Positions 13,298 through 48,942 of a stretch of 64,000 nucleotides of DNA are shown one piece after another. Each line of letters starts with the position of its first letter. Position 1 is the stretch's first letter. Both the position numbers and the translations under genes were made by a program. The DNA is from Ilex aquifolium (Eukaryota > Streptophyta > Magnoliopsida > Aquifoliales > Aquifoliaceae): NCBI GenBank assembly GCA_951799425.1, contig OX637391.1, forward strand, positions 28,453,701 through 28,517,700, read 5' to 3'. The notes beneath the pieces were generated by a model. That model did no database searches, was not told the origin of the DNA, and saw nothing but the letters and a program-made list of their open reading frames with translations.

Positions 13298-13302
13298 CTT
13301 GT

Positions 13303-16372: not shown

Positions 16373-16783
16373 ATGGATGTTAAACTTTTTTGGTTTAGTC
16401 TGGGAGTTCTACACACTTTTCCATCTGATGTGCATACTGTGATCATGAGAAAAGCAAGACTGGTAAGGAAAGCCAAAATCTGAGAACAGCAAGCGAAACT
16501 ACTGTGTGGCAGAAGCACCTTCGCTAAACGCCGTCGTGCCAAAAGGCTTGGTGCCTATAAACAGTGTGGTAGAGTCTTTCACGAAAAAAGATATAATCAG
16601 TGTTCTGAACCAATTTTCAATCGCGCACTCAATCGATCAGACTAGATAGTGAATGAGCAAAGTAAGGATTATCCTGACACGCCATCCTATTCCGGTACTT
16701 TGCTTAACCGGTTTGTATGACAGGAAATTAGAAGAGTCACTGATGGTTCAAATGACACAGAGACAGAGGATGACTCAGATTAG
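16373..16783 (+). pseudogene. Decayed virus-like nucleic-acid-binding ORF of A
   Basis: This is homologous along its length to the two intact ORFs in B (29690-30100 and 31681-32085): the same MD start, an LFWFSLGVL segment, a basic CGRS...KRRR patch and a zinc-finger region. It is broken by a stop at 16481-16483, by loss of the first zinc ligand (Tyr codon at 16556-16558 where B has Cys), and by later changes before a stop at 16781. It shows that this accessory ORF was in the family before A and B separated. The likeness to the cysteine-rich nucleic-acid-binding protein of carla-like plant viruses is discussed under the B copies. Confidence 0.75.
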
Positions 16784-16905: not shown

Positions 16906-16972
16906 GGGCCGAGTAAGGAATGTTCTAGAATACCAACCTAAAGCGTGGGTAGGGACTTATCCTGAGACGCCA
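16906..16972 (+). repeat. 67-nt conserved noncoding repeat, A copy
   Basis: The unit runs from GGCCGAGTAAGGA to GAGACGCCAT and has a central inverted repeat (TACCAAC...GTGGGTA). Two further copies lie in B at 32200-32268 and 32331-32400. In all three it follows the virus-like ORF. Confidence 0.6.
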
Positions 16973-17052
16973 TGAATTTTTGGTTCAAACTTGTGTATAT
17001 AGCCATCTCTTATTGTGTTTATTATTGTGCAGAAAAACTTTTGATTTTTTAT

Positions 17053-17591: not shown

Positions 17592-18519
17592 ATGCCTCCA
17601 AGAGTCAAGCTCCCTGCTAGGCGCAACCCAATAAGTCAAGAGCCTAATATGGTGGAAGAAATCGTCGAGGAGAGAGAGGGGAGGCCCATTACGCGAAGAT
17701 ATGATCGAACCTGATTCCCCACCGCGCTCAAAGCAGACAGGTACGAAAACTTTTACCAAAATCATGTTGTGTTATGTGAGTGGGATGTGATTTTGAGTGA
17801 TTTTGTGGAGTTGGGAATCTTTGCGGATATGGAGAGGAGAGGTTGGATGTGGTACTTGCGAAACGGCGGAGAGGTCGTGGTTGACTTGGTGCGGGAGTTT
17901 TACTCCAACGCCGAAATAGTCAATGGGGCGCTAAAAAGCTATGTGTGGGGGACTCACAACGACGTGGATGAAGACTATATTCCAGAGATGAGACAAGAGG
18001 TACCAAGGCCTACCTACCCCCCAAGGAAGAACGTGGCAATGAACATTGTGGGGGCGGAGCTAACGGGGATGGCTGGTTTTTCTTAGATGGGGCGGAGATT
18101 TCTTCGACAAGGGGAGCTAACCGATAAGTACAAAATGTTAAATTTGATTGCGGTTTCGAACTTTGCCCCAATCGGATGAAAGAACGAGATCCTCCCCAAG
18201 ATTGCCCGTCTACTATACGCACTTGGGAAAGGCCACAACATAGACCTCCCATCGTTGATTTTGACAGAGATGAAGAAGGGATGCGATGTGAAGAGGAATT
18301 CGCTACCCTTCGGCACCTTAGTCACAGAGATATGCAAGGACCATGGGATTAGGGTGAGGCCGGAGATGACTATCCAAAAGCCAATGAGACCACTGAACAA
18401 GGTTCCTTTAGGAGGAGCCAAGGTCATAGTGGCGGCCCAGCGGTTAGACAGGAGATCCCCCTTACCCGAGGAGTTGGAGGAGAATGAGAGAGAGATTTCT
18501 GTTCTTGATTTGAGTGTTT
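17592..18519 (+). pseudogene. Decayed 'putative plant transposon protein' ORF of A
   Basis: The ATG at 17592 opens a short basic leader (MPPRVKLPARR), which ends in a stop after about 38 codons. A shifted frame from about 17769 gives LVREFYSN, and another from about 18225 gives a GTLVTEIC-type segment. These match in order the intact ORF of D (LVREFYRSL and GSLVTRLC). Breaks include stops near 17710, at 18084 and near 18178, and a frameshift. Element E interrupts the frame at 18520-18524; the A sequence continues at 43083. I recall this family as the Pfam Transposase_32 / 'putative plant transposon protein' domain. Its biochemical role is unknown to me, and it is not a DDE transposase by any motif I can see. 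Confidence 0.75.
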
Positions 18520-18913
18520 GTTTCTGTAAAACCCGAGAAAATTTAAACCTTTGTGAAAAAGGGGAAAACGGTAAATTGCCACTACGGTACAGGTTGTAAA
18601 CCTGAATTTTTCTAGAACTCGGATGACGAAACGGACCTCACCGTTGGATTCGTCTCGCGAAATCTAGTTACCACGTCAAATTTCGTTGAATTCTGAGATA
18701 GTCGGATTTTTCGCGTTTTACGAGACGAACGGGCCCCGGGTGACCCTGTACACGAAATTTTTATAAAATTTCCAAGTTTGGGGAAATATTAGAGACAAGT
18801 TAAAATAAAAATAATTCGAACTTGAACCGGAGCGAAATTTAGTCGTTTCGGGATTAAAACGGACCCGAAATTAAATAGGACGTGTGGCGAATTGTGGGCC
18901 AAGTATTCTAAAA

Positions 18914-18949
18914 TATAAATAGGGGCCTAAAGTCTGAAAAATCAGACTT
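18914..18949 (+). promoter_or_regulatory. TATA box and adjoining perfect hairpin of E LTR
   Basis: TATAAATA (18914-18921) is followed by AAGTCTGA-AAAA-TCAGACTT (18930-18949), an 8-bp perfect stem. The 3' LTR keeps both. The inverted repeat lies where the transcript start is expected. Confidence 0.7.
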
Positions 18950-20525: not shown

Positions 20526-20925
20526 CTACCGGAAGGTGTATGTCGGCCTTCCGGAAGGTTTTGCTAAAAACCCTGGATGCCTTGTTCACAGCTAATACCT
20601 TCCGGAAGGTTTTGCCCACTGGAATGAACCGTCCGGAAGATTTTAGCTACTGGAGTAAAACCTACCGGAAGGACTTGTCTACTGGATTGGACCTTCCGGA
20701 AGGTTTTGCCTTAGGTTTCTTTTTGATTGCCAAAATCTTCCGGAAGGTTTTGTTTTCTTGAATGAACCTTCCGGAAGGTTTTGGCTACTGGAATGAACCT
20801 TTCGGAAGGTTTTTGCTACTGATGTTGACCTTCCGGAAGTTCTTGCATTTGATTCTTTTCATTTAACTGTTCTTTCAGCGACCTTCCGGTAGGTGTATGT
20901 CGACCTTCCGGAAGGTTTTCCAAAA
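20526..20925. repeat. CCTTCCGGAAGG palindrome array in 5' LTR of E
   Basis: About twelve units occur in 400 bp, at least five of them perfect 12-bp palindromes, many followed by TTTTG and preceded by TGAA or GA. The array lies downstream of the TATA box and 225 bp before the LTR end. The 3' LTR copy is at about 42453-42845. Confidence 0.9.
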
Positions 20926-21153
20926 ATTTGAAATTTTCAAAATGCTTAGCCATGCTTTTGGGCTTTGTTTTCTTTGGTTCCTATGACATAAATGGACATA
21001 AATTGAGGTATAATTGACCTTGTGGATGGTAAATCCGGTTAAAAGCATGTGAATGACGTGGTGTCGGGTTATACGACTATCACGAGTATTTCCGCGGGTT
21101 GACGGATGGTCAACGGTTAATAAAGGACCCCCGGAAATTGGGGCGTCACAGCT

Positions 21154-21165
21154 TGGTATCAGAGC
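21154..21165 (+). other. Primer-binding site of E (tRNA-iMet type)
   Basis: TGGTATCAGAGC lies 3 bp after the LTR, the usual initiator tRNA-Met complement of chromoviruses. Confidence 0.9.
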
Positions 21166-21506: not shown

Positions 21507-21521
21507 ATGGCAAGTGGAAGG
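21507..21521 (+). pseudogene. First five codons of E gag, cut off by element B
   Basis: ATG 21507 and four more codons reach the end of the target GAAGG (21517-21521). The frame resumes after the right target copy at 35797. The context AGATGGC is favourable for initiation. Insertion of B 15 bp into gag separates the start codon from the rest by 14 kb. Confidence 0.85.
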
Positions 21522-21785
21522 TGATTAACCCTAATTAATGCAAAATGTAATTAAATTAAAAGGTCAATTGTGTAATTAAATAAAGTTAAACTAGTCAAAA
21601 TAAATCTAATTAGGGTTAATGTGTGAATTAAGGATAATGCATTGAATGTTGTTCTTTTCAGGTTTTTATGCGTCAAAACGACAGGAGCCAATTATCAAAG
21701 CATGGAGAGCAACTTATCAAAGCATAGGGTGTAAATTATTAAAGCTCAAAACAAAGGGAGATCAAAGTGTAAATCAAGATCTTCT

Positions 21786-21996
21786 TGATATTTGTAAATA
21801 AATATCTTTTAGGATATTTGTATTTAAATATCTTTTAGGATATTTAAATATATTTTAGGATATTTGTAATTAAATATCTTTTAGGATAAATATCTTTTAA
21901 GATATTTGTAATTAAATATCTTTTAGGATAAATATCTTTTAGGATATTTGTAATTAAATATATTTTAGGATAAATATCTTTTAGGATATTTGTAAT
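21786..21996. repeat. AT-rich dyad array upstream of B LTR TATA box
   Basis: About eight overlapping units of AAATATC-TTTTAG-GATATTT, a 7-bp inverted repeat, are joined by TGTAATT or AAATAT. The array ends 10 bp before the TATA box. In the A LTR this slot upstream of the TATA box holds the ACGTTCGAACGT array instead. Confidence 0.8.
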
Positions 21997-22160
21997 TTGG
22001 ATGCCTATAAATACCCTCCTTGGGGGCTTGTAATAAAAATCCTTCTCTTGTTTCATTTTTCTTGTAAAGAACATTTCTTCCTAGTGGAAAACACTCCAAA
22101 GGTCTTGAATCTTTTTCTTGAATCATCTTTCAAGTATTATTGCTTTATTTACTTTCTTGA

Positions 22161-22435
22161 GTTATTGTTTTCTTTTTATTAGATCTTGGTTGTGAATTAA
22201 ACACCAAGAAGTTGTTGTTTTCTTTTTATTAGATCTTGGTTGTGAATTAAACACCAAGAAGTTGTTGTTTTCTTTTTATTAGATCTTGGTTGTGAATTAA
22301 ACACCAAGAAGTTATTGTTTTCTTTTATGTTTTTATTATATCTTGGTTGTGGATTAAACACCAAGAAGTTGTTGTTTTCTTTTATGTATTATCATCTCTT
22401 GGTTGTGGATTAAACACCAAGTATTTATTGCTTTC
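22161..22435. repeat. Five tandem ~50-bp units in B LTR
   Basis: Each unit contains CTTGGTTGTGRATTAAACACCAAG, whose ends (CTTGGT/ACCAAG) can pair. The 3' LTR keeps the same five units at about 34618-34890. They lie downstream of the TATA box, so they would be in the 5' leader. Confidence 0.85.
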
Positions 22436-23340
22436 TTTTAATTTAAGTATTGTTTTCTTTTACTTCCATTGTTGGAGCTTCCTTCTTCCCCTTAGAGGAG
22501 TGAAACTCTTCCACTTTTCTAGAGTTTTACCAAAGCCGTGAAGGGTGGAACGTGATTCACTCATTCTTTGTCGAAGATCGGCTCCTTGTTTAGCTATTTT
22601 ACTTTAAAGCATTTCACTTCTAGTGCTTGAGCATTTTACTTTGTAACACCTTTTGGGGATGAGTACCATTCATCATTCTAGCTTTACCATAACTATGAAG
22701 GGTGAGTAGTCCTCATTCACTCTTTGGGAAGGGATGATAGCTATGTAAAAGATTAATCCGGACATTATGTTTGTGTATCACCTTTATGCTTAAATGTTAT
22801 ATACTCCACTTGATTTTTGGGTGATTGAATGCACCTAGCAAAGTAAAGGTACTTTGTATAATCAACGGATCTTTCTATGATAAATGGATGACTCCTACAT
22901 GGAAAGATCCATTGATTCAAGGCAAGTACCCTAACTAACTCTTCATGACAAACTTTCAATGTCCACAATTATTGCACTTCATTCCTATCTTCCGATTAAT
23001 TTGCCGTTGACACGGGAGTTAATTGAGTTATAAAGCACAAACATAATGCACCGGACAATCAACTACATATTCTGATTCCCGAACCAAAGAGTGTTTGTTA
23101 CATTTAATCATCTTATATTTTGTCTAGCAAAATACCCATTGGAAAGAATCTTACATTCTATCCAAAACTTCCCACAACTTCAAAATCATAATATTTCCAA
23201 TTACAAGTCTTTCTCACTATTTACTTCAAAGAACACCAACCATAGTTCCCTGAGGATTCGACTCTGGACTCAAACCAGATTATTACTACAACTTGACCGC
23301 CTGCACTTGGGTGTACACATTTCGGATCAAGTCAAGTTTT

Positions 23341-23358
23341 TGGCGCCGTTGCCGGGGA
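23341..23358 (+). other. Primer-binding site of B (tRNA-Asp)
   Basis: TGGCGCCGTTGCCGGGGA lies 6 bp after the LTR, with no mismatch to the tRNA-Asp complement used by Athila elements. Confidence 0.92.
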
Positions 23359-23453: not shown

Positions 23454-25016
23454 ATGACTGACACCAATCGCCTCTTTCAAAATTTGCCTGCTGAATCTTC
23501 TGGGTCTATAAATCAACTTGAACCACCTTCACCCAAATCAGAAGCCGATTCTTGTAACTTCAATATGGCAAATATTGATAGGCAGGGTGAAGATCATGTG
23601 AGAGAGGGGGAAGTACCCAACATTCGAACATTGCGAGATTACTTACATCCCACAAGGAATAGTGTCCCCTCTTGTTTTATTTTTCCTGAAAATGCTCCCC
23701 TCTTTACTGTAAAGCCGGGGACAGTGCAGTTATTGCCCGTGTTTCATGGATTGGATGCAGAAAATCTGTATCTGCATATCAAAGACTTCGAAGAAGTGTG
23801 TGGAACATTTCAAGACAATTCTGAATTGACAAAAATGAAATTGTTTTCTTTCTCTTTGAGGGATAAAGCCAAACAATGGTTACATTCTTTAAAATCTCTT
23901 TCAATCCCTAATTGGCAGGCTCTACAGAATGAATTTTTCAGAAAATTCTTTCCTCTGCACCGCACTAATACACTCAAAAGACAAATCATGAATTTTTCGG
24001 TCAAAGAAGGGGAAACTTTTTATCAAAGCTGGGAGAGATTCAAAGATCTTCTCCAATCTTGTCCACACCATGCTTTTGAAAATTGGACTTTGGCAGGTTT
24101 TTTCTATGATTCCTTGCCCACTAGGTTACGACAGTTTGTCGAAATGATGGCTCAAGGAGAGTTCATGGGAAAAAGTCCGGAGGAGGCATTCAATTTTTTT
24201 GATACCATATCTGACAGTTCTCAAATGTGGGACTCAGCCTCTCCTACCATTGTAGAAGCCAAACCACCTACTTTCCAAGGGGGTAAGTATGTCTTGAGAG
24301 AAGATGATGATCTTAGAGCAAAAATGTCCACTTTGTCTCGAAAGCTTGAAGCTTTAGAGATGAAAAAGATCCATCAAGTTGATGTTATCCCTCCCACAGA
24401 ACAAGTATGTGGGATTTGTGCGCTAACAGGGCATCCTACTGGGGAATGCCCGACCATTCCGGCATTCAAAGAAGTTTTGTTTGAACAAACAAATGCCATT
24501 TCCAATTTCAACAAGCCTTACTCCAACCCATACTCTGAAACATACAATCCAAGGTGGCGGAACCACCCAAATTTCAGTTGGAGAAACACACAACCAACCC
24601 CCATGAATCAGCAACAAGGTCCACAACAACCACCTCAAGGACCTCCACAATATCCTCATCAACAAGGGCCACCACATCCACCTCAAGTACCTCCACAATA
24701 TCCTCCATATCAACCACCACACAAAAGGAGCCTTGAAGATACATTGAATCAATTCATGCAAACCCAAATGAGCTATAACAATAGTTCTACTCAGGCTTTT
24801 ATTGATTTTAAGGCCCAGACCACACAATCTTTTGAGGATCTCAAAGGCCACATTCAAAAGCTGACCCAGTCCATGAGCACACATGAGAAGGGAAAATTTC
24901 TTGCCCAACCAAAGCCTCCACAAGGCCAATTTCAGGTGGGAAATCCATCAACTATGGAAACTCCACAAGACCAAGCCAAAAACTGTCACCACATTGAGAA
25001 GTGGCAAAAAGATTGA
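23454..25016 (+). pseudogene. gag of B (frame shifts before protease)
   Basis: The ATG at 23454 opens a 520-codon frame. It has a polar leader, the retrotransposon gag domain (about residues 85-255), a zinc knuckle CX2CX4HX4C (codons 24408-24449, CGICALTGHPTGEC), and a Pro/Gln-rich stretch (about residues 385-425). The frame runs out at 25014, while the conserved TLRSGK motif that should follow is read in the next frame from about 24990. The extra base lies in an A run near 24979-24983. Gag forms the particle and binds element RNA. A and D have gag and protease in one frame, which suggests that the shift is a mutation. Confidence 0.9.
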
Positions 25017-27531
25017 CAAGTCCATCAGAAACATGCTGATTCCAGACCCAAAACCAGTCTCAATTCCAGCCAACCCATTAAGTGAGCCAGAACTTGAAAA
25101 AAAAAATGACTGTGATCCCATGATTGAACAAGAACCAGAGCCATCAAGGGAAGAAGAACCCTCGTGTTCTATTCCTGCTCCTTTCCCTCATAGACTCAAG
25201 AGCATACAGAAAGCAAACAATCAGTCTGAAATTTACGAGCTTTTCAAGCAAGTAAAAATCAACATCCCACTTCTGGATGCAATCCAACAGGTTCCAGCTT
25301 ATGCCAAGTTTCTAAAAGACTTGTGCACAGTCAAAAGAAGCCAAAATGTTCAAAAAAGAGCCTTCCTCACAGAGCAAGCCAGTGCCCTACTTCAACACAA
25401 AATCCCTTCAAAGTGCGAAGATCCAGGGTGTCCCACTGTGTCATGTGTCATTGGAAATTTCAAAATTGAGCAAGCATTGTTAGACCTTGGAGCTAGTGTC
25501 AACTTGCTTCCTTTCTCTGTCTACCAGCAGTTGGGTTTAGGTGAACTGAAACCCACTTGCACCACACTCCAATTGGCAGATAGATCTGTAAAAATTCCTA
25601 GGGGTATTGTTGAAGATGTACTTGTCCAAGTGGATAATTTTGTCTTCCCTGTAGACTTCATTGTTCTAGATACTCATCCAGAAGTTCATTCAGAAACTCC
25701 AATTCCTGTCATTCTTGGTCGACCTTTTCTAGCAACCTCCAATGCACTAATCAATTGCAGGAATGGTATTATGAAATTGACTTTTGGGGATATGACTCTC
25801 GAAATGAACGTCTTTGACATTGCAAAACACCCAAGAGAGTACGAGGAGGTAGGAGAAATAAATTCCATTGAGTCATTGATACAAGCACATCTGAATGACT
25901 CATTCTGTGAGGATCTTAGTGAATCAACTTTGTCAAAATCTGACTCATCTGACTCTCTGGAACAAAACTCCATTGAGTGTCCTACCTTCAATGTGGGGAC
26001 ATGGGCTCCTAAATTTGAAGAAATTTCATCAAGTGGTACAAAACCACTATCTTCAAGTGACAGGTCACCAAAGCCTGAACTGAAACCGCTCCCATCTGAT
26101 CTCAAGTATGCATTTTTAGGTGAGGATAAATCTTACCCAGTGGTAATTTCTTCAAAAATCACAGACTTGCAAGAAGCTCAATTAATTGAAGTTCTTAAAA
26201 GTCACAAAAGCACCATTGGGTGGACCATCGCTGATTTGAAAGGTATAAGCCCGTTAATTTGTAATCATGTCATATACCTTGAAGAGGACTCAAAACCCTC
26301 TCGTCAAATGCAGCGACGATTGAATCCTCACATGAAAGAGGTTGTGAGACTGGAAGTGCTCAAACTCCTGGATGCAGGGATAATTTTTCCTATCTCCGAT
26401 AGCAAATGGGTTAGTCCAACCCAAGTTGTACCAAAGAAATCTGGAGTCACAGTAGTCAAAAATGATGCAAATGAACTTGTGCCAACACGAGTCGTCACAA
26501 GATGGCGAATGTGCATTGACTATCGAAAACTCAATCTGGTGACTAGAAAAGACCATTTTCCTCTTCCCTTCCTTGACCAAGTCCTCGAGAGAATAGCAGG
26601 CCATGAATTTTACTGTTTCCTGGATGGGTATTCCGGATACAATCAAATTGAGATAGCTCTGAATGACCAAGAAAAGACCACATTCACATGTCCATTTGGC
26701 ACCTTTGCATTCAAAAGGATGCCATTCGGACTTTGTAACGCTCCTGCAACATTTCAAAGATGTATGCTGAGCTTGTTCAGTGACATGGTCGAAAAATTTT
26801 TGGAAATCTTCATGGATGATTTCTCGGTATATGGTGACTCATTTGATTTGTGTCTAGCTAACCTAGAAAAAGTTTTGATGAGATGCAAAGAGGCAAATCT
26901 GGTGCTTAACTGGGAGAAATGTCATTTCATGGTGAATCAAGGCATTGTCTTGGGTCACATTGTGTCGTCTGAAGGCATGAAAGTTGATAAAGCAAAAATT
27001 GATTTGATAAGGAATCTTCCTGCTCCTAGGGTTGTAAAGGATGTTCGATCATTCTTAGGTCATGCAGGATTCTACAGAAGGTTCATAAAAGACTTTAGGA
27101 CCATAGCAAAACCTATGTGTCATCTTTTGAGTCAGGATGTCATTTTCGACTGGAATGAAGCGTGCCAAAAATCCTTTGACAAACTCAAAGGCATGTTAAT
27201 TTCTGCCCCAATAATGCAACCTCCTGACTGGACTCTACCCTTTGAATTGATGTGTGATGCTAGTGACTATGTTGTAGGTGCTGTTTTGGGACAAAGAAAA
27301 GATAAGAAGCCACATGTGATTTACTATGCAAGTAAAACTTTAAATGATGCCCAAATGAATTACTCAACAACTGAAAAGGAATTACTTGCTGTAGTATTTG
27401 CATTGGAAAAATTTCGATCTTATCTTGTTGGTTCTTCTGTTACTGTATTTACTGACCATGCAGCACTGAAATTTTTGCTTACAAAAAAAGATGCCAAACC
27501 AAGGCTCTTGAGATGGATCCTCTTGCTCTAA
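24984..27531 (+). pseudogene. Protease, RT and RNase H of B
   Basis: This frame (positions 1 modulo 3) starts with TLRSGK, then the aspartic protease (DLGAS, Asp codon 25483-25485), a linker, RT ([13 protein letters not shown] at about 26407; DYRKLN at about 26518; catalytic FMDDFSVYG near 26809-26838) and RNase H (CDAS at about 27256; TEKE at about 27370; TDHAALK at about 27451). A TAA at 27529-27531 stands where A has CAA (Gln). The same frame continues after it with the last RNase H residues and integrase. Apart from this stop the enzyme motifs are intact. There is no separate start codon, so expression needed the gag start. Confidence 0.9.
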
Positions 27532-29055
27532 GAATTTGACTTAGTCATTAAGGACAAAAAGGGTGTGGAAAATGTGGTGGCAGATCATCTGTCGAGATTA
27601 ACTTATGAATTTCATGAGGATGGACTGCCAATTAATGAAAAATTCCCTGATGAACAACTATTCAGGATTGATGAGACCCCATGGTACGCTGATATTGCTA
27701 ATTTCCTTGCTACCAGAACACTTCCTCCATTTTTCACTCCCATGGACAAAAAGAAGTTTCTGAGGGAGGTCCGCAATTTCTTTTGGGAAGATCCCTACGT
27801 ATTCAAGTACTGTAAGGATCAGATCATAAGACATTGCATCCCCGCTCAGGAAAGTAGACAGGTAATAACATTTTGTCATTCAGAAGCATGCGGTGGTCAT
27901 TTTTCATCTCGAAAAACCGCTGCAAAAATCTTGCAGTGTGGATTTTACTGGCCCACACTTTTCCAAGATGTCCATGCTTTTTGCGTAACTTGCGATAGAT
28001 GTCAAAGGTTGGGAAACATTTCAAAAAGAAACATGATGCCCTTAAACCCAATTTTGGTGATCGAAATTTTTGACTGTTGGGGTATCAATTTTATGGGACC
28101 ATTTCCCCCCTCCTTTGGCTATCTATACATTTTAGTAGCCGTAGACTATGTATCCAAATGGGTTGAAGCAATTCCATGCCGAAATAATGATCATCAAACA
28201 GTGATCAAGTTTTTAAAAGAAAATATTTTATCTCGGTTTGGAATTCCAAAATCCATTATAAGTGATGGGGGTTCTCATTTTTGCAATCGTCCCTTCTGGA
28301 ATTTAATGAAAAAATACTTGATTTTTCACAAAATTGCAACCCCTTATCATCCACAGACCAGTGGACAAGCTGAGTTAGCTAATCGAGAGATCAAATTAAT
28401 TTTGGAAAAAACGGTGAACCCAGATCGCAAAGATTGGTCATTAAGACTAACTGATGCGCTCTGGGCATACCGAACTGCTTTTAAAACAATTTTGGGCATG
28501 TCTCCCTATCGATTAGTCTATGGAAAGCCATGTCACTTGCCTGTGGAATTGGAACATAGGGCATACTGGGCTATTAAAGCAATGAATTTTGACTTAGACA
28601 AGGCTGGACTGTCACGGAAGCTTTAGATTAATGAATTGGAGGAATTGAGAAATGAAGCATATGAAAATGCTAAGATTGCAAAAACCAGGATGAAAATTTT
28701 TCATGACAAGAACATAGTGCGAAAATCTTTTGAACCTGATCAAAAGGTTCTACTTTTCAATTCGAGACTTCGCCTATTTCCTGGTAAGTTGAAATCAAGA
28801 TGGACTGGACCATACATTGTTAAAAAGGTATTTGAACATGGGGCAGTGGAAGTGGAGAACCCATCAAACGGTAACATTTTTACTGTCAATGGTCAGCGAT
28901 TAAAACCCTTTGTGGAGAATTTTGTCCAAAATGTGGAGACCATTTTTTTTATGGATCCAGAAAGTATCTCCGGAAATCACTCCGGAGATTACGCTTGCCG
29001 ACACAAAAAAGGGTCGGGTCAATCAGACACCCGACACGATGGACTGCCTTTATAA
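27532..29055 (+). pseudogene. RNase H end and integrase of B
   Basis: The region continues in frame with ADHLSR, the integrase zinc-binding domain (HCIP...CHSEACGG...CVTCDRC, about 27830-28010), the DDE core and a C-terminal domain (LLFNSRLRLFPGKLKSRW, then VNGQRLKPF, to 29055). The first catalytic aspartate is changed: GINFMGP at 28081-28101 has Asn at 28087-28089, where D has Asp (GIDFMGP). The second (SDGGSHF) and third (QAELANRE) are kept. A TAG at 28624-28626 splits the C-terminal part where other copies have Gln. The integrase is therefore probably inactive for two independent reasons. Confidence 0.88.
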
Positions 29056-29689
29056 GGCCCCCATCGTTTTTTTTTTTTCCTTTTTCTTTTCCCCACCGCC
29101 TTTACTCTTTTCTTTTCTTTTTCTTCTTCTTTTTCTTCTCTTTTCTTCTTCTTCTCCACTGCATCTGGTCTTCTGTACCACGATCCAACCCATAACAGTA
29201 CCATGTCTGCATTTTTCGATGACCCTATCCTCCTTCTCATGATCTACATTTGTTTGTATTATTTACTTATGGCTGTTCTTCTTCGGGCCGCACTGATGAT
29301 CAAGGGTTTTTGTCCCAATGAAAACCCAGACCACCCCAAAGATGCTTAATCTCTGTTTTTTTTGGTATAGGTCATCGGCGATTGAACATATCTCCACAGT
29401 TAACTGCGTATTCAAGCTCTACAAACCGAAAAACTCGAAACATTGGGGACAATGTTCAGTCTAGGTTGGGGGGTGAGATCTACAGTTTACAGTAGTTGAT
29501 CTGCAGTTTACAGTAGTTGATCTGCGCAGGTTGAACCCGTAAAATTTTCTGTAAATTTTTTTGTTTTTATTGTTGTATCTGTTTAGATTATGTACCTTGT
29601 ATTAATGATAATATCTGTGGGTCAGTTTTGATCGTCTTTGTGACTGGAAGACGTAAAAGAACCAGATAGTGGGTTATAAAGTAGCAATC
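29056..29689 (+). other. B: pyrimidine-rich stretch, acceptor-like site and internal PPT
   Basis: No gene is seen. A long pyrimidine stretch (about 29065-29160) is followed by TTTTTTTTGGTATAG (AG at 29369-29370), then ATTGAACATATCTCCAC, and TTGGGGACAATG leading to CTAGGTTGGGGGGTGAG (29443-29475). The tract is nearly identical to the true 3' PPT (33963-33978). A 22-bp direct repeat occurs at about 29485-29525. The layout suggests a spliced or internally primed RNA for the next ORF. Confidence 0.55.
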
Positions 29690-30100
29690 ATGGATGTAAA
29701 TCTTTTTTGGTTTAGTCTAGGAGTCCTACGTACTTTTCCATCTGATGTACATACCATGATCATGAGAAAAGCAAGATTAGTAAGGAAGGCTGAAATCAAA
29801 GAAAAACAAGCGAAACCCCTCTGTGGCCGAAGCAGTTATTCTAAACGTCGTCGTGCTACACGACTTGGTGCCTGTAAACAGTGTGGCAGATACTTTCATG
29901 AGAAAAGATACAACAAATGTTCTGAACCAATTTCCGGTCGCGCAACCGATCGATTAAACTGGATAGTGAATGGGCTGAGTAAGGATTACCCTGATACGCC
30001 ATGCTATTCCGGTACTGTGCTTAACCGATTTGTGAGAGAGGAAGTTGGGAGAGTTACTGGTTGTCCATTTTACACAGATACGGAGGGGGAATCGGATTGA
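29690..30100 (+). CDS. Virus-like basic zinc-finger protein, copy 1 (B)
   Basis: An intact 136-codon ORF. I chose the ATG at 29690 because the MD start is shared with the copies at 31681 and 16373; an ATG 21 bp upstream is not shared. The protein has a hydrophobic/aromatic start (LFWFSLGVL, residues 5-13), a basic patch with CGRSSYSKRRR (residues 45-55), zinc ligands C62, C65, H70 and C77 (CX2CX4HX6C), a conserved stretch (DRLNWIV at about 87-93, KDYPDTP at about 98-104), and an acidic end. The order GRS-x-aromatic-basic-RRA followed by CX2C is that of the cysteine-rich nucleic-acid-binding proteins of carla-like plant viruses (Pfam Carla_C4 / Viral_NABP, recalled, not searched). In those viruses the protein binds nucleic acid and can affect silencing or transcription. 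A role here is inference. It lies in the env-like position but has no signal peptide or membrane segment. Confidence 0.75.
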   Translation: MDVNLFWFSLGVLRTFPSDVHTMIMRKARLVRKAEIKEKQAKPLCGRSSYSKRRRATRLGACKQCGRYFHEKRYNKCSEPISGRATDRLNWIVNGLSKDYPDTPCYSGTVLNRFVREEVGRVTGCPFYTDTEGESD

Positions 30101-30286
30101 CCTCTGTGGAAAAGTGTACTGAGGTTGGGAATGAGAGCTGAAGGTCCGAGTCTGTAAATTTTATTTTATTTTATTTTTTTTTATGTTCTGTACAAACTCT
30201 TTTGACTAAAATGAAAACATGGATTCCTTTTAGTATGCATAATGCAGTGTAGAAAAAAAAAAAAAAAATTTTTTTTTTTTGATTCG

Positions 30287-30298
30287 ACGTTCGAACGT
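30287..30298. repeat. ACGTTCGAACGT palindrome remnant in B
   Basis: One perfect 12-bp copy is followed by a decayed one (about 30304-30315). It lies after ORF copy 1, the same place as the array in A (17053-17362). This suggests that B's ancestor had the A-type internal array. Confidence 0.7.
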
Positions 30299-31680
30299 TA
30301 CAACACGTTTGAATGTTTTTGCTAAAATCCTTCTACAATAGTGTACAGTTGTTTTTATTTAATGTTATTTTTAATGCATGTCACTTTCTTTTGTTGTATA
30401 GTTTTGTTGTTCCTATTTTCAGATATCGGTGCCAGGTCAAAACTCAAGGGCAAGGTGTTCTCTTACCCTACTCATTTTTTTTTTATTGTGCGTCATTAAT
30501 TATCATATCTTTTTGTTACATTGAGGACAATGCATGAACCAAGTTAGGGGGTGAGGTTGCATTATTTGTGGGAATATTCTGCGTGGGTTGCATTATTTGT
30601 GGGAATATTCTGCGTGGATATCCACTCTGCCGACACTGCGCACCATTAAAAAAAAAAAAAAAAAAAATTTCAAGTCTGCACCATTATTGCGCCTGCTGCC
30701 ATGATTTGCGACTGCCGACACTGCCGAAAGTAAAAAGGGGGGGGGCCTCCCATTCTTTTTCTTCTTCTTTTTCTTTTCTTATGCCAACTCCTGCCGACAC
30801 TTTTTTAAAAAAAAAAAAAGTCTGAGGAATGCCTTTATTAGGCCTTCCACCTTTTTCTTTTTCTTCCACCATCACCGGTGTTGGTTCCCCCCTTTTCTCT
30901 TTCCCTTCTCTTCTTCTCTTTCTTTTTCTTCTCTTCTTCTTCGTCGTCGTTCTTTCTGTTCTCTGTAAAAACAACTCACCCCCTGTAAATCCATGACCAT
31001 ATACGCCGACGATCCAGTCTTTTGTTTAATAATTTGTCTTATATGTTTGTATGTGTACCTGGGTGCTCTTTGTGTTCTCACACTTAGGATGAGGAGTTTC
31101 CAGAGAAACCCAGATATTCCTTGAGTTGAGTAATTGTTGTATTTTGTTTGTAGGTTTCGGCAGATGAACAGATCTGTACCTTACAACCTTATCTCCACTA
31201 GCCCACTAGTGCTAGTGTTGTAAGTATTGCTTGTTTGTAATTTCATTTATATATATATTTGAAATTTGATATCTACAGCTTGTGATTCTCATGGCTATTT
31301 GTCTTTATAAAATTCCTTGTGAATTTGCTATGCCCTCCAATGACTATGTTGTAATTGCTGTTAGAGTAAGATCTGATAATTTGCCAAATAATCCTCCTCA
31401 ATCCTATGTATTCTGGGTTTATTCCTTCTTCGTTAATTTGTTTGTTTCATCCTAAATCTTCTTCCTTCCGCTTGTATTTTGGTATACTTTCTCTAGTTTC
31501 GTATTTGTAATTTTAGTTTTAGATTTGAAAAAAAAAAAAAAAATTTGTTTATTTTTTCTGGATCGCGTTTTTTTTAGTATTTGTACCTGTATTTCATGAT
31601 CACATCGGATGCAGCTTCAACTGTCTTTGTGACTGACAGACGTTAAAAAATCAGATAGAATGTCTTTAGTCTTAGCAAGC
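30299..31680 (+). other. B: second PPT/acceptor module, no gene
   Basis: 30455-30560 aligns with the region after integrase in D (minus strand, about 51100-50997): GGTGTTCTCTTACCCTACT, then ACATTGAGGACAATGCATG, then GTTAGGGGGTGAGG. A 30-bp tandem duplication (GCATTATTTGTGGGAATATT core) lies at about 30556-30617. Pyrimidine-rich stretches (30760-30790, 30850-30960) precede a second acceptor-like TTTTGTTTGTAG (AG at 31152-31153) followed by GTTTCGGCAGATGAAC. Poly-A and poly-T runs occur near 30250-30280, 30648-30668 and 31530-31545. I see no coding frame. Confidence 0.55.
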
Positions 31681-32085
31681 ATGGATCCTAAACTTTTTTG
31701 GTTTAGTCTAGGAGTTCTACGCATTTTCCCATCTGATGTGCATGCTGTGATAATGAGAAATGCAAGGGATGTGAGAAAAATTGAGATCCGAGAGAAACAA
31801 CAACAACCATTGTGTGGCAGAAGCAATTTTGCTAAACATCGTCGTTCCAAACGACTGAGTGCTTGTTACCATTGTGGCAGGATATTTCATATGAAAAAAC
31901 ATAATCAGTGTTCTGAACCAATTTCGGGTCGTGCAACCGATCGATTAAACTGGATAGTGTATGGGCTGAGTAAGGATTATCCTGACACGCCATCTTATGC
32001 CAGTCCAGGACTTACAAGTTATGTGCGACAAGAAGTTGGAAGGGTCACTGATAATGACATAGATCCAAGCGATGACTCAGATTAG
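31681..32085 (+). CDS. Virus-like basic zinc-finger protein, copy 2 (B)
   Basis: An intact 134-codon ORF, by eye roughly 70% identical to copy 1, without stop or frameshift. It keeps the MD start, LFWFSLGVL, the basic patch (CGRSNFAKHRR, residues 45-55), all four zinc ligands with the same spacing (C62, C65, H70, C77), DRLNWIV, KDYPDTP and an acidic end. An ATG 21 bp upstream (31660) is also in frame, but its context is not shared with copy 1. The two copies differ by many replacements yet keep the zinc ligands, the basic patch and the open frame. This points to selection on the protein before or after duplication. It lies between the second internal PPT and a pair of 70-nt repeats. Confidence 0.75.
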   Translation: MDPKLFWFSLGVLRIFPSDVHAVIMRNARDVRKIEIREKQQQPLCGRSNFAKHRRSKRLSACYHCGRIFHMKKHNQCSEPISGRATDRLNWIVYGLSKDYPDTPSYASPGLTSYVRQEVGRVTDNDIDPSDDSD

Positions 32086-32400: not shown

Positions 32401-33978
32401 AGTTTTTCAAGTTTAATTGGTGCATCTAGTCTTCTTTCAATTTTCATAGATAAATGAGTATGTTTATAATTTTGAATTTTATTTCTTCTTCTTTAAAAAA
32501 AAAAAAACTCACTTCCTTGAAAAATGGTATTTTCTCTATGCTTAAATGTCAAATGTATATTGCTATTTGTTATTCTTAAGGTACAGAATGACCAGACTCG
32601 AAAATAGAATTGGTATATAACCGACATTCCATGAAAAACCTGACATTACCAGTGGAGATGATAAAGAATACCATGGTAAGTTTTGAGCCTTATCATACTT
32701 TTGAGAGATAATTAATATTTATTCAAGTAAGGTCTTTCACTCTCTATTTTTGAATAATCTCATTAAATTTGCTTTGATTGATGCAATTAAGGTAATCTGT
32801 TGACATATCCCCAAGAAATCTGTTCATACGACACATACATGTTCACATACTTGAGAAAGGATTTTAGGCCATCTTTGATTTGATATTGAGCCTTAGCCAT
32901 TTTTTCTGCAAAATTATTTCCCTAGTCAGCCATGTTTGAGCCCTCAATGTATGATTTCTTCTTTGATAAACCCAAATATTTACCAAGCCACAAGAAAACA
33001 TACTGGACACACCATTGCTATCTAATTTTCTTGCACATTCTTATAAATCAATATGACACAGAAATGCAAAGAAATGGGGAAAACTGTGGAGATTACTTTT
33101 CGATGACAAGGAGAATCAATGGGAACAAATGAAAAAAAAAAAAAAAAAAAGAAATCATTTCTGGGCAAAATGTCGAAAAGCTAGAAAGAAGTGTGTTACA
33201 TTACAGAATGAAAGGATAGCTTTTGAAAATCATTGACGTCATTTCATTAGCCACTGACCTCTGGCCACGCTACAACCTATGAAAAGCCCTAATTGATCTC
33301 AAGTCTGTTACATGCGTGTGTTGTCAATCAAAATTGGGGTATGGTAAATAGTATTTCTTTAAATTGCAACAATATTCCTTCATGAGATTATGCCAAACAT
33401 GATTAGTTTGTTTCCTTAAACTTCACTCCCTTCCTAATTGTGCATGTGATTTTTCGATTGGCCACCTTCTGATCACATGCCCCGTGAGAGATTTAAGTCA
33501 CTATAATCGGAGTGAACTTTTGCTGAGAGCATTCTACGAGAGGTTTGTGAAATCGAAGCTATCCATGGAAGGTAGTAAAGTGGAGTGTTTGTTATATAAC
33601 AATTCTTGTTGCTAGAATGATCATTCTTACTACATAGGGAATTTCAAATATCAATATAACAAGTGTTTATTTTTGCATATATTACGTACCAATGACAGAG
33701 AAGTGTTTTATTTTGCTAAAAAAATAAATAAAAAATAAAAAATAAATAAAATTCGGCGTCTCAGCTATCATGGTGCTAATGCATATACATATTTTTTCAA
33801 ATGGAGTTTGTAGGTAGCTTCACTGAAAACCTTCACGAGACAAAACTCGTCCACTAGGAATCACCTAGGGGTTTAACGGCTTATTGCATATGCTAAATGC
33901 AATCGTGTTATCTACGAAAGTGATTTTGTTATGCTGTTATTTATTACTAGGGACTAGTAATGTTTAGGTTGGGGGGTG
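32401..33978 (+). other. B: noncoding 3' tail and polypurine tract
   Basis: No gene is seen. Much of it aligns with A at 43380-43600 and 61113-62418, showing common descent. The PPT is TTAGGTTGGGGGGTG (about 33964-33978), directly before the 3' LTR. Confidence 0.7.
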
Positions 33979-35791
33979 TGATTAACCCTAATTAATGCAA
34001 AATGTAATTAAATTAAAAGGTCAATTGTGTAATTAAATAAAGTTAAACTAGTCAAAATAAATCTAATTAGGGTTAATGTGTGAATTAAGGATAATGCATT
34101 GAATGTTGTTCTTTTCAGGTTTTTATGCGTCAAAACGACGGGAGCCAATTATCAAAGCATGGAGAGCAACTTATCAAAGCATAGGGTGTAAATTATTAAA
34201 GCTCAAAACAAAGGGAGATCAAAGTGTAAATCAAGATCTTCTTGATATTTGTAAATAAATATCTTTTAGGATATTTGTATTTAAATATCTTTTAGGATAT
34301 TTAAATATATTTTAGGATATTTGTAATTAAATATCTTTTAGGATAAATATCTTTTAAGATATTTGTAATTAAATATCTTTTAGGATAAATATCTTTTAGG
34401 ATATTTGTAATTAAATATATTTTAGGATAAATATCTTTTAGGATATTTGTAATTTGGATGCCTATAAATACCCTCCTTGGGGGCTTGTAATAAAAATCCT
34501 TCTCTTGTTTCATTTTTCTTGTAAAGAACATTTCTTCCTAGTGGAAAACACTCCAAAGGTCTTGAATCTTTTTCTTGAATCATCTTTCAAGTATTATTGC
34601 TTTATTTACTTTCTTGAGTTATTGTTTTCTTTTTATTAGATCTTGGTTGTGAATTAAACACCAAGAAATTGTTGTTTTCTTTTTATTAGATCTTGGTTGT
34701 GAATTAAACACCAAGAAGTTGTTGTTTTCTTTTTATTAGATCTTGGTTGTGAATTAAACACCAAGAAGTTATTATTTTCTTTTATGTTTTTATTATATCT
34801 TGGTTGTGGATTAAACACCAAGAAGTTGTTGTTTTCTTTTATGTATTATCATCTCTTGGTTGTGGATTAAACACCAAGTATTTATTGCTTTCTTTTAATT
34901 TAAGTATTGTTTTCTTTTACTTCCATTGTTGGAGCTTCCTTCTTCCCCTTAGAGGAGTGAAACTCTTCCACTTTTCTAGAGCTTTACCAAAGCCGTGAAG
35001 GGTGGAACGTGATTCACTCATTCTTTGTCGAAGATCGGCTCCTTGTTTAGCTATTTTACTTTAAAGCATTTCACTTCTAGTGCTTGAGCATTTTACTTTG
35101 TAACACCTTTTGGGGATGAGTACCATTCATCATTCTAGCTTTACCATAGCTATGAAGGGTGAGTAGTCCTCATTCACGCTTTGGGAAGGGATGATAGATA
35201 TGTAAAAGATTAATCCGGACATTATGTTTGTGTATCACCTTTATGCTTAAATGTTCTATACTCCACTTGATTTTTGGGTGATTGAATGCACCTAGCAAAG
35301 TAAAGGTACTTTGTATAATCAACGGATCTTTCTATGATAAATGGATGACTCCTACATGGAAAGATCCATTGATTCAAGGCAAGTACCCTAACTAACTCTT
35401 CATGACAAACTTTCAATGTCCACAATTATTGCACTTCATTCCTATCTTCCAATTAATTTGCCGTTGACACGGGAGTTAATTGAGTTATAAAGCACAAACA
35501 TAATGCACCGGACAATCAACTACATATTCTGATTCCCGAACCAAAGAGTGTTTGTTACATTTAATCATCTTATATTTTGTCTAGCAAAATACCCATTGGA
35601 AAGAATCTTACATTCTATCCAAAACTTCCCACAACTTCAAAATCATAATATTTTCAATTACAAGTCTTTCTCACTATTTACTTCAAAGAACACCAACCAT
35701 AGTTCCCTGAGGATTCGAATCTGGACTCAAACCAGATTATTACTACAACTTGACCGCCTGCACTTGGGTGTACACATTTCGGATCAAGTCA
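33979..35791 (+). repeat. 3' LTR of B
   Basis: The 1813-bp LTR has its TATA box at 34463-34470. It ends in ...AAGTCA, followed by GAAGG and the rest of E gag. A frame that opens at 35548 inside this LTR runs through its end into E gag-pol without a stop. Confidence 0.95.
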
Positions 35792-35796
35792 GAAGG

Positions 35797-40461: not shown

Positions 40462-43077
40462 TGTAAAACCCGAGAAAATTTAAACCTTTGTGAAAAAGGG
40501 GAAAACGGTACATTGCCACTACGGTACAGGTTGTAAACCTGAATTTTTCTAGAACTCGGATGACAAAACGGACCTCACCGTTGGATTCGTCTCGCGAAAT
40601 CTAGTTACCACGTCAAATTTCGTTGAATTCCGAGATAGTCGGATTTTTCGCGTTTTACGAGACGAACGGGCCCCGGGTGACCCTGTACACGAAATTTTTA
40701 TAAAATTTCCAAGTTTGGGGAAATATTAGAGACAAGTTAAAATAAAAATAATTCGAACTTGAACCGGAGCGAAATTTAGTCGTTTCGGGATTAAAACGGA
40801 CCCGAAATTAAATAGGACGTGTGGCGAATTGTGGGCCAAGTATTCTAAAATATAAATAGGGGCCTAAAGTCTGAAAAATCAGACTTCTCCTTCACCATTT
40901 CAGCCGAGAGAAAAGAAGAGAGGGAAAGTGAGAGAAAACTCAACTTCTCTCTACGATCTACTCCATTTTAGAGCTCGAATCCACTTGGGCCAAGAACAAA
41001 AATTGTTCTACTCGACGAGGGCTACGCGTGGGTACCAAAAACGACGGCTTTCACCGAACATTGGGAGGCCGAAAATTTGGAAGTGGAGGATTCAAGCTTG
41101 CTTTGAGTTCTAGGAGCTTCCCACGGCGATTCTACACGCTACAAGAGGTAGGGTTTCTTCCTACTAAGGTTTATTCCAAGCCTATAATGTTTTTATGGAA
41201 TGGGTAGGATGATAGCCTATGTATCTCTTGCCTATTGTCGTGAAATTGGGTGAATTGGGTATTGAAATGGGTAAAGGAAAATCCTAGCTTGGATAGGTAT
41301 TTAGAAGTTACTAAATGTGATTTCTATGATTGGATATGTGAAATGAACCCAATGTGAATTCATGTGTTATGTGAAAAGGTGGGCATGTTATGTGTTATAT
41401 ATGTATATGCCTTGAATTCTAGTATGTTGATAACATGCTTGAAATTTGTATTATGGGAATTATATGCTTATGATATGATTTCGCCATGAAATATGTGAAG
41501 TGTGATGAGAATGTTCATATGTCACTTATACCATATCGAACATTAAATTATTGTTGCAATGGAGCATCACATTACATATGCACGGGAACATCGCATTTAG
41601 TGGGTGAGTGTGCATGATTGTTGTCCTCACCACGTGTGGTGGATGGCGAGTGGGCTCGGGTAATATGGGTCGGTGACCTAGTCGAGTCGCACGGTTTGCA
41701 TGGTTAATAGGGTTGGGGTAGCAAGAAGGGCTAGACTATCCCTCGGGTGAGAGACCCGGTGATGGGATACGCACTCCCTTGGCTCGGTCCATGAAGTGTG
41801 TGGGTGTACGCGGAACCTTCGGTGGAAGTCCGTCAATTCCGTGTGGGTTGGGTGACCCTTGGTGTGAGTCCATGAACATCCACCCCTACAAAGACCCTAG
41901 AATGAAATGTCATTTGATGTGAAACATAAATGACGGATTGGTACACATTGGCACTTGCATGTGTAGAGGAGCCGGGAAGGGCTCGGTTGATGTGCATGAG
42001 TGAGTCTCACCTCATTTCATAGCATGGCATTACATGTTTCAACATGGAATATATTCTTGTTGTGGATTGTTGATTGATAGCATGTGAACATTTCATATGC
42101 ATTTAGGTTGGGGAGTAGCCTCTTTAGGAGATACCCTATTGAGCGTGGCTCACCCTTTATGGGAAAAATATTTCAGGTGTGGGTTTTGCACCGGCGGATG
42201 GCTCACTTGGAGAGCATCAAGCATGAAGGGGGCCGGCTTGTGGCCTTAGTTTGAGTTTTGTAAAACCTTTAACAAAATTCCATTTTGATGTATATGTATT
42301 ATGGAATGAATTGTGATAGAGCTTGTATGAGTTGTGTATTATATGGAAAATCTCATTAAACATGTGTTGGATGAGTTTGGAGTGTATGGGGTAGCTTTAA
42401 GGATGGTTTGGAGGGGAAAGAAATCCATTTTTTTTGCTCACAGTCTGAAAACCTACCGGAAGGTGTATGTCGGCCTTCCGGAAGGTTTTGCTAAAAACCC
42501 TGGATGCCTTGTTCACAACTAATACCTTCCGGAAGGTTTTGCCCACTGGAATGAACCTTCCGGAAGATTTTAGCTACTGGAGTAAAACCTACCGGAAGGA
42601 CTTGTCTACTAGATTGGACCTTCCGGAAGGTTTTGCCTTGGGTTTCTTTTTGACTGCCAAAATCTTACGGAAGGTTTTGTTTTCTGGAATGAACCTTTCG
42701 GAAGGTTTTGGCTACTGGAATGAACCTTCCGGAAGGTTTTTGCTACTGATGTCGACCTTCCGGAAGTTCTTGCATTTGATTCTTTTCATTTAACTGTTCT
42801 TTCAGCGACCTTCCGGTAGGTGTATGTCGACCTTCCGGAAGGTTTTCCAAAAATTTGAAATTTTCAAAATGCTTAGCCATGCTTTTGGGCTTTGTTTTCT
42901 TTGGTTCCTATGACATAAATGGACATAAATTGAGGTATAATTGACCTTGTGGATGGTAAATCCGGTTAAAAGCATGTGAATGACGTGGTGTCGGGTTATA
43001 CGACTATCACGAGTATTTCCGCGGGTTGACGGATGGTCAACGGTTAATAAAGGACCCTCGAAAATTGGGGCGTCACA
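40462..43077 (+). repeat. 3' LTR of E
   Basis: The 2616-bp LTR has its TATA box and hairpin at about 40851-40886 and its CCTTCCGGAAGG array at about 42453-42845. It is followed by GTTTC. Differences from the 5' LTR are concentrated in the array. Confidence 0.95.
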
Positions 43078-43082
43078 GTTTC

Positions 43083-47709: not shown

Positions 47710-48942
47710 TCACTCTCCATCTCTCTCTTCATCATCACCCTCTGATTCTTCCCCTTCCTCAGACTCCTCATCATCTTCCTCATCCTCATTTGCCCTGGAG
47801 GTAGAAGGTGCAGTAGGCACTTCTGGGATGGGTCTCCCAGGGAATGTGTGCATGTACATCTCCTTCATCATCACCATCATTCCCTGAACTGAGGCCTCAA
47901 TCCCATGCACTGTCGTCTCTAGTGCATCAAGTCTCTTGGGGACTGAGCGTGCTGACACAGGCTTGAATGGCATGGTGGGTGCAGTTGGTACAACGTCCTC
48001 ATCAGACTCAAGCTGAGCTCGCTCCCCACGACCCATGGCCTTCCTCTTTTGGCTACTGGCCCTACCTATGGCCCCAGTCTCGGGTGGGGTGAGCTTGTCT
48101 GATGCGTAGCCCTTAACCTTAAAATGGTCACACAGTCGGGTAACCAAGCTCCCATACGGTAGGTTAGTCAATGGCTTCTCTGTGATGGCAAAGTCTTTCA
48201 TGACTTCCCAAATAACAAGGGCAAAATCGATTGTTTTGCCCGACACCACAACATCCAGAATGGCCAGCTTTTCCAGGTTTGGTTTCTTTTTCGCAGCCCT
48301 TGGGAGTAGGTTATAATGAAGCACTTTGTTGAGAAGCCCATAAACATGCTTCAACCCACCACTATGAACCACTCCCTTGAATTCAGTCGGATCCTCATAC
48401 ATCAAATCAACATACTCCGCCTTGGTCTTAGCTCTTCCCATGTTGTAGGGGTAGACAGGTGGGGAAGATGGAGGTCTCTGATAGTCTCCAAGAAGGGTGG
48501 CTATGACATCAGGGGTCACTGTAAACACCTTTCCCCTAACATTCACTCTCAGAACTTCCCCAACAGCAACCTCAACCAATTTCAATGAACGGTAAAATTC
48601 CCTCACCAATGCCAGGTTGTAACTCTCAACTTCCTTGAACCAGAAATGCATCCCATGCCCCTCAATGATTTTCACAACAGGATGAATGGGGGAAAGGGAA
48701 ATTTTATCCAAAAATCGTTCACAGGTCACATTCTTACCATCGATCAATTGGCGACGGGCATCCCTCTTAGCCCTCTTCCTCTGCTCCTCTGGGTCCTCAC
48801 TTGACCCTTCGCCTCCTCTCTTGCGGCTGGAGGAGACCTTGGCAGGAGGGGAAATGGGCTCTGGTTCTGGCCCTGGTCCAGCTCTCTTGGTGCGAACCAT
48901 TGAGATTATCCAATGAGGGTTGTCCAAAGAAGCCGAAATCAA
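47710..48942 (-). CDS. Accessory ORF of D, 'putative plant transposon protein' type
   Basis: An intact ORF on the strand of D's pol, between integrase and 3' LTR. It is 410 codons from 48942. The second Met at 48900 (396 codons) is the likelier start because it opens a basic leader (MVRTKRAG) like the A copy. The N-terminus has a bipartite nuclear signal (SSRKRGG...EEQRKRAKRDARRQ). The conserved core contains LVREFYRSL (about residue 93) and a later GSLVTRLCDHF segment. There is then a possible coiled coil (RLDALETTVHGIEASVQGM) and a Glu/Asp-rich C-terminus of about 25 residues. I recall the core as Pfam Transposase_32 / 'putative plant transposon protein'. No DDE or membrane motif is visible, so neither transposase nor envelope function is supported. 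A nuclear role is inferred. Roughly one lesion per 270 codons in gag-pol means that an open frame of this length is only weak evidence of selection. Confidence 0.8.
   Translation of the reverse strand: MISASLDNPHWIISMVRTKRAGPGPEPEPISPPAKVSSSRKRGGEGSSEDPEEQRKRAKRDARRQLIDGKNVTCERFLDKISLSPIHPVVKIIEGHGMHFWFKEVESYNLALVREFYRSLKLVEVAVGEVLRVNVRGKVFTVTPDVIATLLGDYQRPPSSPPVYPYNMGRAKTKAEYVDLMYEDPTEFKGVVHSGGLKHVYGLLNKVLHYNLLPRAAKKKPNLEKLAILDVVVSGKTIDFALVIWEVMKDFAITEKPLTNLPYGSLVTRLCDHFKVKGYASDKLTPPETGAIGRASSQKRKAMGRGERAQLESDEDVVPTAPTMPFKPVSARSVPKRLDALETTVHGIEASVQGMMVMMKEMYMHTFPGRPIPEVPTAPSTSRANEDEEDDEESEEGEESEGDDEERDGE

Follow-up and report, generated by a model that had tools for sequence, protein, structure and literature searches.

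A Tandem Pair of Flexivirus NABP-Like Genes in an Athila-Type Retrotransposon of Ilex aquifolium

The Paired Genes and the Element That Carries Them

The window analyzed here is a stretch of 64,000 nucleotides of the Ilex aquifolium genome (contig OX637391.1, positions 28,453,701 to 28,517,700). Our subject is a pair of small open reading frames (ORFs), N1 and N2, that sit between pol and the 3' long terminal repeat (LTR) of a retrotransposon designated element B (Table 1). Both resemble the nucleic acid-binding protein (NABP) of flexiviruses. Each begins with ATG and has no stop within the frame. The two proteins are identical at 88 of 123 positions (72%, pair E = 1e-68), and the repeat is recovered independently at the DNA level as 79% identity over 300 nt. 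In common are an LFWFSLGVL start, a CGRS-x-aromatic-x-K patch, the segments DRLNWIV and KDYPDTP, and the zinc ligands C62/C65/H70/C77. The ligands are invariant in all 12 members of the family alignment (A1); outside that alignment, a tyrosine replaces C62 in the decayed copy at 16373 and in protein P0012. An initial annotation, made by eye from the letters, had described two intact ORFs of 136 and 134 codons without stops, about 70% identical and sharing these motifs and ligands, in an element with a broken polyprotein. The coordinates, translations and alignments bear out all of this.

Table 1. Coordinates of N1, N2 and related features in the window.
Feature	Position	Strand	Basis or remark
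N1, NABP-type ORF, 136 codons	29690..30100	+	Viral_NABP 41.1 bits, Carla_C4 26.4 bits
N2, NABP-type ORF, 134 codons, paralogue of N1	31681..32085	+	Viral_NABP 47.5 bits, Carla_C4 23.1 bits
Conserved leader upstream of N1, candidate 3' splice site	29634..29654	+	pattern search
Conserved leader upstream of N2	31623..31643	+	pattern search
5' LTR of element B	21522..23334	+	11 mismatches in 1813 against 3' LTR; TG...CA ends; target duplication 21517-21521
Primer binding site	23341..23358	+	sequence after 5' LTR
gag	23454..25016	+	Retrotrans_gag 1e-16
Protease, reverse transcriptase (RT), RNase H, integrase	24883..29055	+	stops at 27529 and 28624
Polypurine tract ahead of 3' LTR	33962..33978	+	sequence
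3' LTR of element B	33979..35791	+	target duplication 35792-35796
Third NABP-type copy, decayed	16373..16780	+	three stops, C62 lost
Two Transposase_32 pieces downstream of decayed NABP	17715..18599	+	28.2 and 34.5 bits; cut-off 45, both below
Intact Transposase_32 ORF of Athila-type element C	47710..48942	-	Pfam match

Element B is a young Athila-type insertion, as the small difference between its LTRs indicates. The 5-bp target-site duplication GAAGG flanks it on each side. Its gag-pol is broken, with gag and pol in different frames and two in-frame stops in pol, and it is otherwise complete: the LTRs, the target duplication and Pfam matches to gag, protease, RT, RNase H and integrase are all present, the domains in that order. 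The ORFs listed around N1 and N2 either belong to retrotransposons or are small and unassigned. The two genes lie inside an LTR retrotransposon and not in the setting of a viral gene, that is, a flexivirus genome with replicase, movement and coat genes.

Relationship to Flexivirus Proteins

Judging by profile comparisons, N1 and N2 are almost certainly homologous to the flexivirus NABP proteins. Both exceed the curated Pfam cut-offs for the two viral families that the initial annotation had pointed to, Viral_NABP (PF05515, 23 bits; E = 2.6e-10 for N1 and 2.8e-12 for N2) and Carla_C4 (PF01623, 20.9 bits; E = 6.8e-6 and 7.5e-5). A protein search with N2 returns 10 relatives of 64–87% identity on contigs of 528–2941 bases, and all 10 carry both viral Pfam domains in a precomputed table. 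These 10 together with N1 and N2 form a 12-sequence family profile that includes no virus. From 771 candidates in a database of 5.8 billion proteins, it returns 29 proteins at E ≤ 1, and it reaches the RNA-binding protein of Grapevine virus A (GVA) at E = 2.0e-7 and one Carrot vitivirus 1 protein at E = 0.03. The alignment of GVA P10 to N1 and N2 has the patch, the finger, a SISG...DRL.FV segment and an acidic end in common, but the first 40 residues are missing from P10. A wider profile (A2) of 26 rows, two of them viral, returns 694 proteins at E ≤ 1. Among the 120 listed is a group of mostly 182-amino-acid (aa) proteins that includes two clusters of more than 300 sequences; four of the proteins are named by source, as hypothetical proteins of Populus alba, Populus x canadensis (two) and Xanthoceras sorbifolium. 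Each viral Pfam family is matched by 20 of the 26 A2 rows at E ≤ 0.01. No relative turned up in IMG/VR when it was scanned with N1, alignment A2, GVA P10 or the alignment of the 182-aa group.

A first structure model from 12 sequences is poor (pLDDT 46). An AlphaFold2 model from 80 sequences is fair at best (pLDDT 68, pTM 0.37), with helices at 3–15, 18–39, 49–59, 83–94 and 109–122. Compared with predicted viral structures, it has 42 matches at E ≤ 10 and 4 at E ≤ 0.001, the latter to two pruneviruses, Garlic virus X and Cherry mottle leaf virus. We take the best matches to represent the genera prunevirus, allexivirus and trichovirus. Among the best 26 of the 42, 23 are named, all presumably flexivirus proteins as judged by name. 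The TM-scores of these 26 over the query are 0.23–0.37, and therefore the ranking is driven by sequence. A fold search of the PDB gives two matches, each at E > 7. An argument from the fold was dropped in view of the model scores. The label "carla-like" in the initial annotation is not the best one for these results, in which the family profile reaches a vitivirus and the best model matches fall in the three genera just named.

Selection and Open Frames

N1 and N2 have diverged under purifying selection. Synonymous divergence (dS) between them is 0.75 and nonsynonymous divergence (dN) 0.21, for a dN/dS of 0.28 (codon bootstrap 0.16–0.45), well away from the value near 1 that the initial annotation had named as telling against its proposal. 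When neutral evolution was simulated with the observed 98 differences, the frame stayed open in 68 of 2000 runs. Compared with the decayed copy, dN/dS is 0.24 for N1 and 0.38 for N2. Against L063 and L064, two host-genome loci described in the next section, N1 and N2 give 0.23–0.27 at a dS of 1.4–1.6, which is near saturation, and L063 against L064 gives 0.44.

Among recent copies of the family, N1 is open in 36 of 39 and N2 in 38 of 40, in a count that left out one locus whose best N1 match was below 85%. The gag-pol region is one open stretch of at least 1869 codons in 5 of 20 other copies, three of the 20 being partly covered. The initial annotation had set the lack of stops in N1 and N2 against the broken polyprotein. 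The observation holds, but it is not evidence of selection on its own; we dropped that argument, since the openness of N1 and N2 is what their short length would lead one to expect. Because open-frame rates match this expectation and constraint among recent copies is weak, we base the case for selection on the deeper comparisons only.

NABP Genes in Other Elements

In at least two other Athila lineages an NABP-like ORF comes after pol, contrary to the initial annotation's capture by one Athila family. Three NABP loci of the host genome, L062, L063 and L064, were picked for long open frames and not at random. L062 is a 90–95% relative of element B with both NABP copies present. In L063 and L064, pol is 73–78% identical to that of B, and one NABP lies downstream of the integrase in the 3.1–3.3 kb read; these two may belong to one lineage. 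The other lineage is seen in L001, a 3330-base contig that reads as plant DNA; of 33 pattern matches across the genome collection, it alone was confirmed. It carries an Athila-type RNase H–integrase end, 71.6% identical in DNA to window positions 27381–28922, and about 200 bases past the stop of that frame is a 182-aa NABP-like ORF that passes the Viral_NABP cut-off (34.2 bits) and is below that of Carla_C4 (19.8 bits). This contig (DAIEQH010000041.1) is filed under a Candidatus Nomurabacteria metagenome-assembled genome, yet it is plant retrotransposon DNA.

The decayed NABP copy of the window is held by an element around 13279–16979 whose pol is 82% identical to that of B. The two Transposase_32 pieces downstream of it probably belong to the same element. 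Transposase_32 (Athila ORF-1) is the usual extra ORF of Athila elements, which have gag-pol and the position class of the extra gene in common with element B; element C is one such element. NABP is unlike Transposase_32 in being unrelated to it by Pfam, and near 16373 it is placed upstream of the Transposase_32 remnants. It appears, then, that NABP is a further gene, placed after pol and ahead of the usual extra ORF, retained in some lineages and absent from others. The initial annotation had placed N1 and N2 in the env position. This is right insofar as they come after pol, but the remnants downstream make NABP look like an addition to the usual extra ORF. A tblastn comparison with the ORF of element C gave no Transposase_32 match in element B.

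A scan of the host genome (800 Mb, 103 contigs) with PF05515 gives 3,095 first-look candidates. Of these, 150 were scored; all 150 are over the Pfam cut-off, and 147 have no stop in the matched stretch. The same scan gave no candidates in 14 control genomes, perhaps without plants among them. We count at least 40 copies of the stretch 29690–32085; 11, the window's own among them, are full length at 96–100%. The NABP-carrying family has spread recently. A group of 129-aa proteins (P0016) has 150 scored matches in the host genome at 44–47% identity, mostly at loci of the N2 kind, while the 182-aa group has matches there at 29–37% identity only. At G000:C12:1122188-1128912, four NABP matches share one orientation and follow one another in steps of 2137, 2137 and 2139 bases, which suggests local tandem amplification of an NABP unit.

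Age of the Duplication

The tree of these proteins has 41 rows, two of them viral, and is unrooted; the program flags P0018, P0019 and P0029 as long branches. Eight rows including N1 form one group (98/96). N2 groups with P0001 and P0002 (85/83, under the program's mark for firm support), and P0003–P0005 are unplaced yet bear an N2-type end. N1 and N2 each have nearer relatives in other sequences than in one another, so the duplication is old, and the sequence relationships place it before the spread of their family. Of the capture and subsequent doubling proposed in the initial annotation, the tandem duplication stands, but not a recent doubling within one element, as relatives of each copy are found elsewhere. 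A separate observation concerns exchange between the copies: in L062 (2564–2968), the N2 stretch SSYSKRRRATRLGAC has the N1 reading, a sign of possible gene conversion.

A Conserved Leader

A conserved leader, GTCTTTGTGACTGRMAGACGT or a one-base variant of it, precedes all seven genes of this type examined (N1, N2, the decayed copy, both L062 copies, L063 and L064). It was not found before the L001 ORF. The window contains its 13-base core three times, in every case ahead of an NABP copy, where 0.13 occurrences would be expected. The 21-base pattern has 1,860 exact occurrences in the genome, and its reversed control has none. In the stretch of contig C1 covered by the first 100 of these 1,860 places, the leader is on the same strand and at most 79 bases upstream in 11 of 15 known NABP matches; the other four have none. 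By a looser pattern, 38 of 40 copies have two leaders and 2 have one. The bases ahead of the AG vary (GA, AC, GC) and the AG itself is constant, as would fit a 3' splice site. A reading of the leader as an RNA hairpin was set aside because the seven copies fold differently.

Other Features of Element B and Its Surroundings

The assignment of element B to the Athila lineage draws on domain order, the primer site and the similarity of its pol to that of element C, which has Transposase_32. The primer binding site is presumably of tRNA-Asp type. There is no chromodomain among the Pfam matches listed for element B. A repeat pair at 18525–21154 and 40462–43081, 98.8% identical, brackets element B and is read as the LTRs of an element, which we take to be of Tekay type, that received it.

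A motif resembling the polypurine tract, CATTG(A/G)GGACAATG ... AGTTNGGGGGGTG, is repeated within element B at 29437–29475, 30514–30557 and 33951–33978. It is also found elsewhere, at about 51036–50998 in element C and at 2575–2614 in L001, in some cases directly after NABP genes. Such internal motifs of Athila-type elements are possible second-strand priming sites. The LTRs of element B contain two sets of short tandem repeats, with steps of about 10–26 bases and about 50 bases (21803–22039 and 22110–22489, and again 34260–34496 and 34567–34946).

Proposed Function and Alternative Explanations

We propose that NABP would be translated from a spliced, env-like mRNA by way of the AG of the conserved leader, and that the protein would bind RNA or DNA by its CGRS/RRR patch plus the CX2CX4HX6C finger. 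Since the homologous viral proteins are described as silencing suppressors, N1 and N2 may bind nucleic acid and blunt silencing. The main benefit would be a blunting of host RNA silencing of the element, as the viral relatives do for viruses, and the two diverged copies might divide the task. GVA P10 is tabulated as a silencing suppressor acting on small interfering RNA (PMC3712444). A suppressor role is likewise described for the proteins of SPCFV, CVB and CYVCV, that of CVB being called a transcription factor as well (PMC12172455). N1 and N2 have the Pfam families PF05515 and PF01623 in common with such flexivirus NABP or cysteine-rich proteins, over cut-off. They differ in being encoded by an LTR retrotransposon as a tandem duplicate, and in that suppression is a putative role for them. 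NABP looks like a working part of these retrotransposons, not a stray fragment, and is very probably a conserved functional gene of theirs. Silencing suppression as its function is plausible and is put forward tentatively. We judge the explanation as a whole, tandem paralogues of an Athila-borne flexivirus-type NABP gene that blunts silencing, to be on balance the probable one.

Several observations weigh against this explanation. Among recent copies, pooled pN/pS is 0.73 for 39 N1 and 0.44 for 40 N2, indicating weak constraint, and the non-singleton N2 variants comprise 11 nonsynonymous and 2 synonymous changes. The close relative L062 likewise shows weaker constraint (dN/dS 0.81 for N1 and 0.57 for N2). 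The per-codon decay of gag-pol predicts that about 90% of ORFs this short would be open. In L064, one zinc ligand is lost (H70 to Tyr). Four profiles detect no NABP in element C, an element that lives without the gene. A scan for splice donors found AAG|GTGTTT at 23369, recurring at 4917 in element A; it is too weak to claim, and there is no convincing donor. One might read the weak constraint and the open-frame rates, which fit neutral decay, to mean that NABP is a nonfunctional hitch-hiking ORF kept open by its shortness and the youth of the copies. We find this very improbable, since dN/dS is 0.20–0.44 in every comparison of this gene type with dS of at least 0.29, the zinc ligands are conserved, and the gene is retained across lineages. 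A chance or convergent zinc-ribbon resemblance, for example to ribosomal protein eL43/L37Ae, would account for faint sequence similarity to eL43 chains, with a best E of 0.0045, and for the source name L37AE/L43A of one relative, P0009. This is barely credible: N2 scores 12.9 bits against TIGR00280, for which the NCBIfam cut-off is 95.8, and N1 does not match that model, whereas both are well above the cut-offs of the viral families, and the similarity to GVA runs beyond the finger. The main rival sees NABP as a chaperone of nucleic acids or as a factor for packaging or nuclear transport, in effect an accessory nucleocapsid, and not as a suppressor. The basic patch and the CX2CX4HX6C finger, which we take to be close to the retroviral zinc knuckle, are conserved beside gag-pol and would suit such a role. 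The viral relatives are also multifunctional (PMC12172455). However, the gag of element B already bears a CX2CX4HX4C motif, and those named viral relatives for which a role is described act as suppressors (PMC12172455, PMC3712444), so that we regard this rival as unlikely, if serious.

As to origin, the initial annotation had an Athila family capturing a carla-like virus gene and then doubling it. The matches to Carla_C4 and Viral_NABP and the tandem arrangement agree with this version, but a recent capture by one family is improbable given NABP-like genes in other Athila lineages, N1-like and N2-like relatives on other contigs, and closest named viruses that are not carlaviruses. Two viral rows cannot separate capture by elements from capture by viruses. 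The opposite direction of transfer would make NABP an old Athila anti-silencing gene, from which the flexivirus NABP genes descend: an element of this kind would be the source of the cysteine-rich suppressor of flexiviruses, or the gene would have passed repeatedly between the two pools. In its favor, the three nonviral groups are as distant from each other as from the viruses, and in the unrooted tree the two vitivirus rows group with the N1/N2 family (93/85), the 129-aa and 182-aa groups lying at a greater distance. Against it are the small number of viral rows, the lack of a root, the flagged long branches (P0029, P0018), and a 129-aa group whose context is not established. We consider such a transfer or exchange rather unlikely.

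Related Systems and Significance

Among the papers listed in searches of the open-access literature, we recognized none that describes an NABP-like gene in a retrotransposon. An AlkB domain in orchid Ty3/Gypsy elements is likewise an addition to a plant gypsy element of a domain also found in flexiviruses, and a role in control of the element is proposed there (PMC9289625). It differs in domain and family, and in being described as a functional m6A demethylase, where the function of NABP is proposed from its relatives (PMC9289625). Extra ORFs of sunflower Tekay and Athila elements are conserved within a retrotransposon group and suggested to modulate RNA silencing, as here, but the suggestion comes from predicted structure, and viral homology is not among the matter reported in the passages cited (PMC11728184). 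A flexivirus replicase-like sequence endogenous to cucumber is also a flexivirus-related sequence in a plant genome, but it is an integrated replicase fragment not multiplied by a retrotransposon (PMC3136472).

A review calls the env-like function of extra ORFs in plant LTR retrotransposons controversial (PMC7264820), and a large survey raises the question of whether they are functional at all (PMC6317226). Since 250 codons was the lower limit for an extra ORF in that survey (PMC6317226), its design would have missed genes of 130–180 codons. The extra ORF described here has a clear and testable relative in a viral family with described silencing suppressors, and the question of whether a plant retrotransposon encodes an anti-silencing protein becomes a simple expression assay. 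It also raises the question of whether viruses and retrotransposons trade such genes. If the flexivirus genes do come from Athila elements, or have been exchanged with them, one anti-silencing gene pool would serve both plant RNA viruses and retrotransposons.
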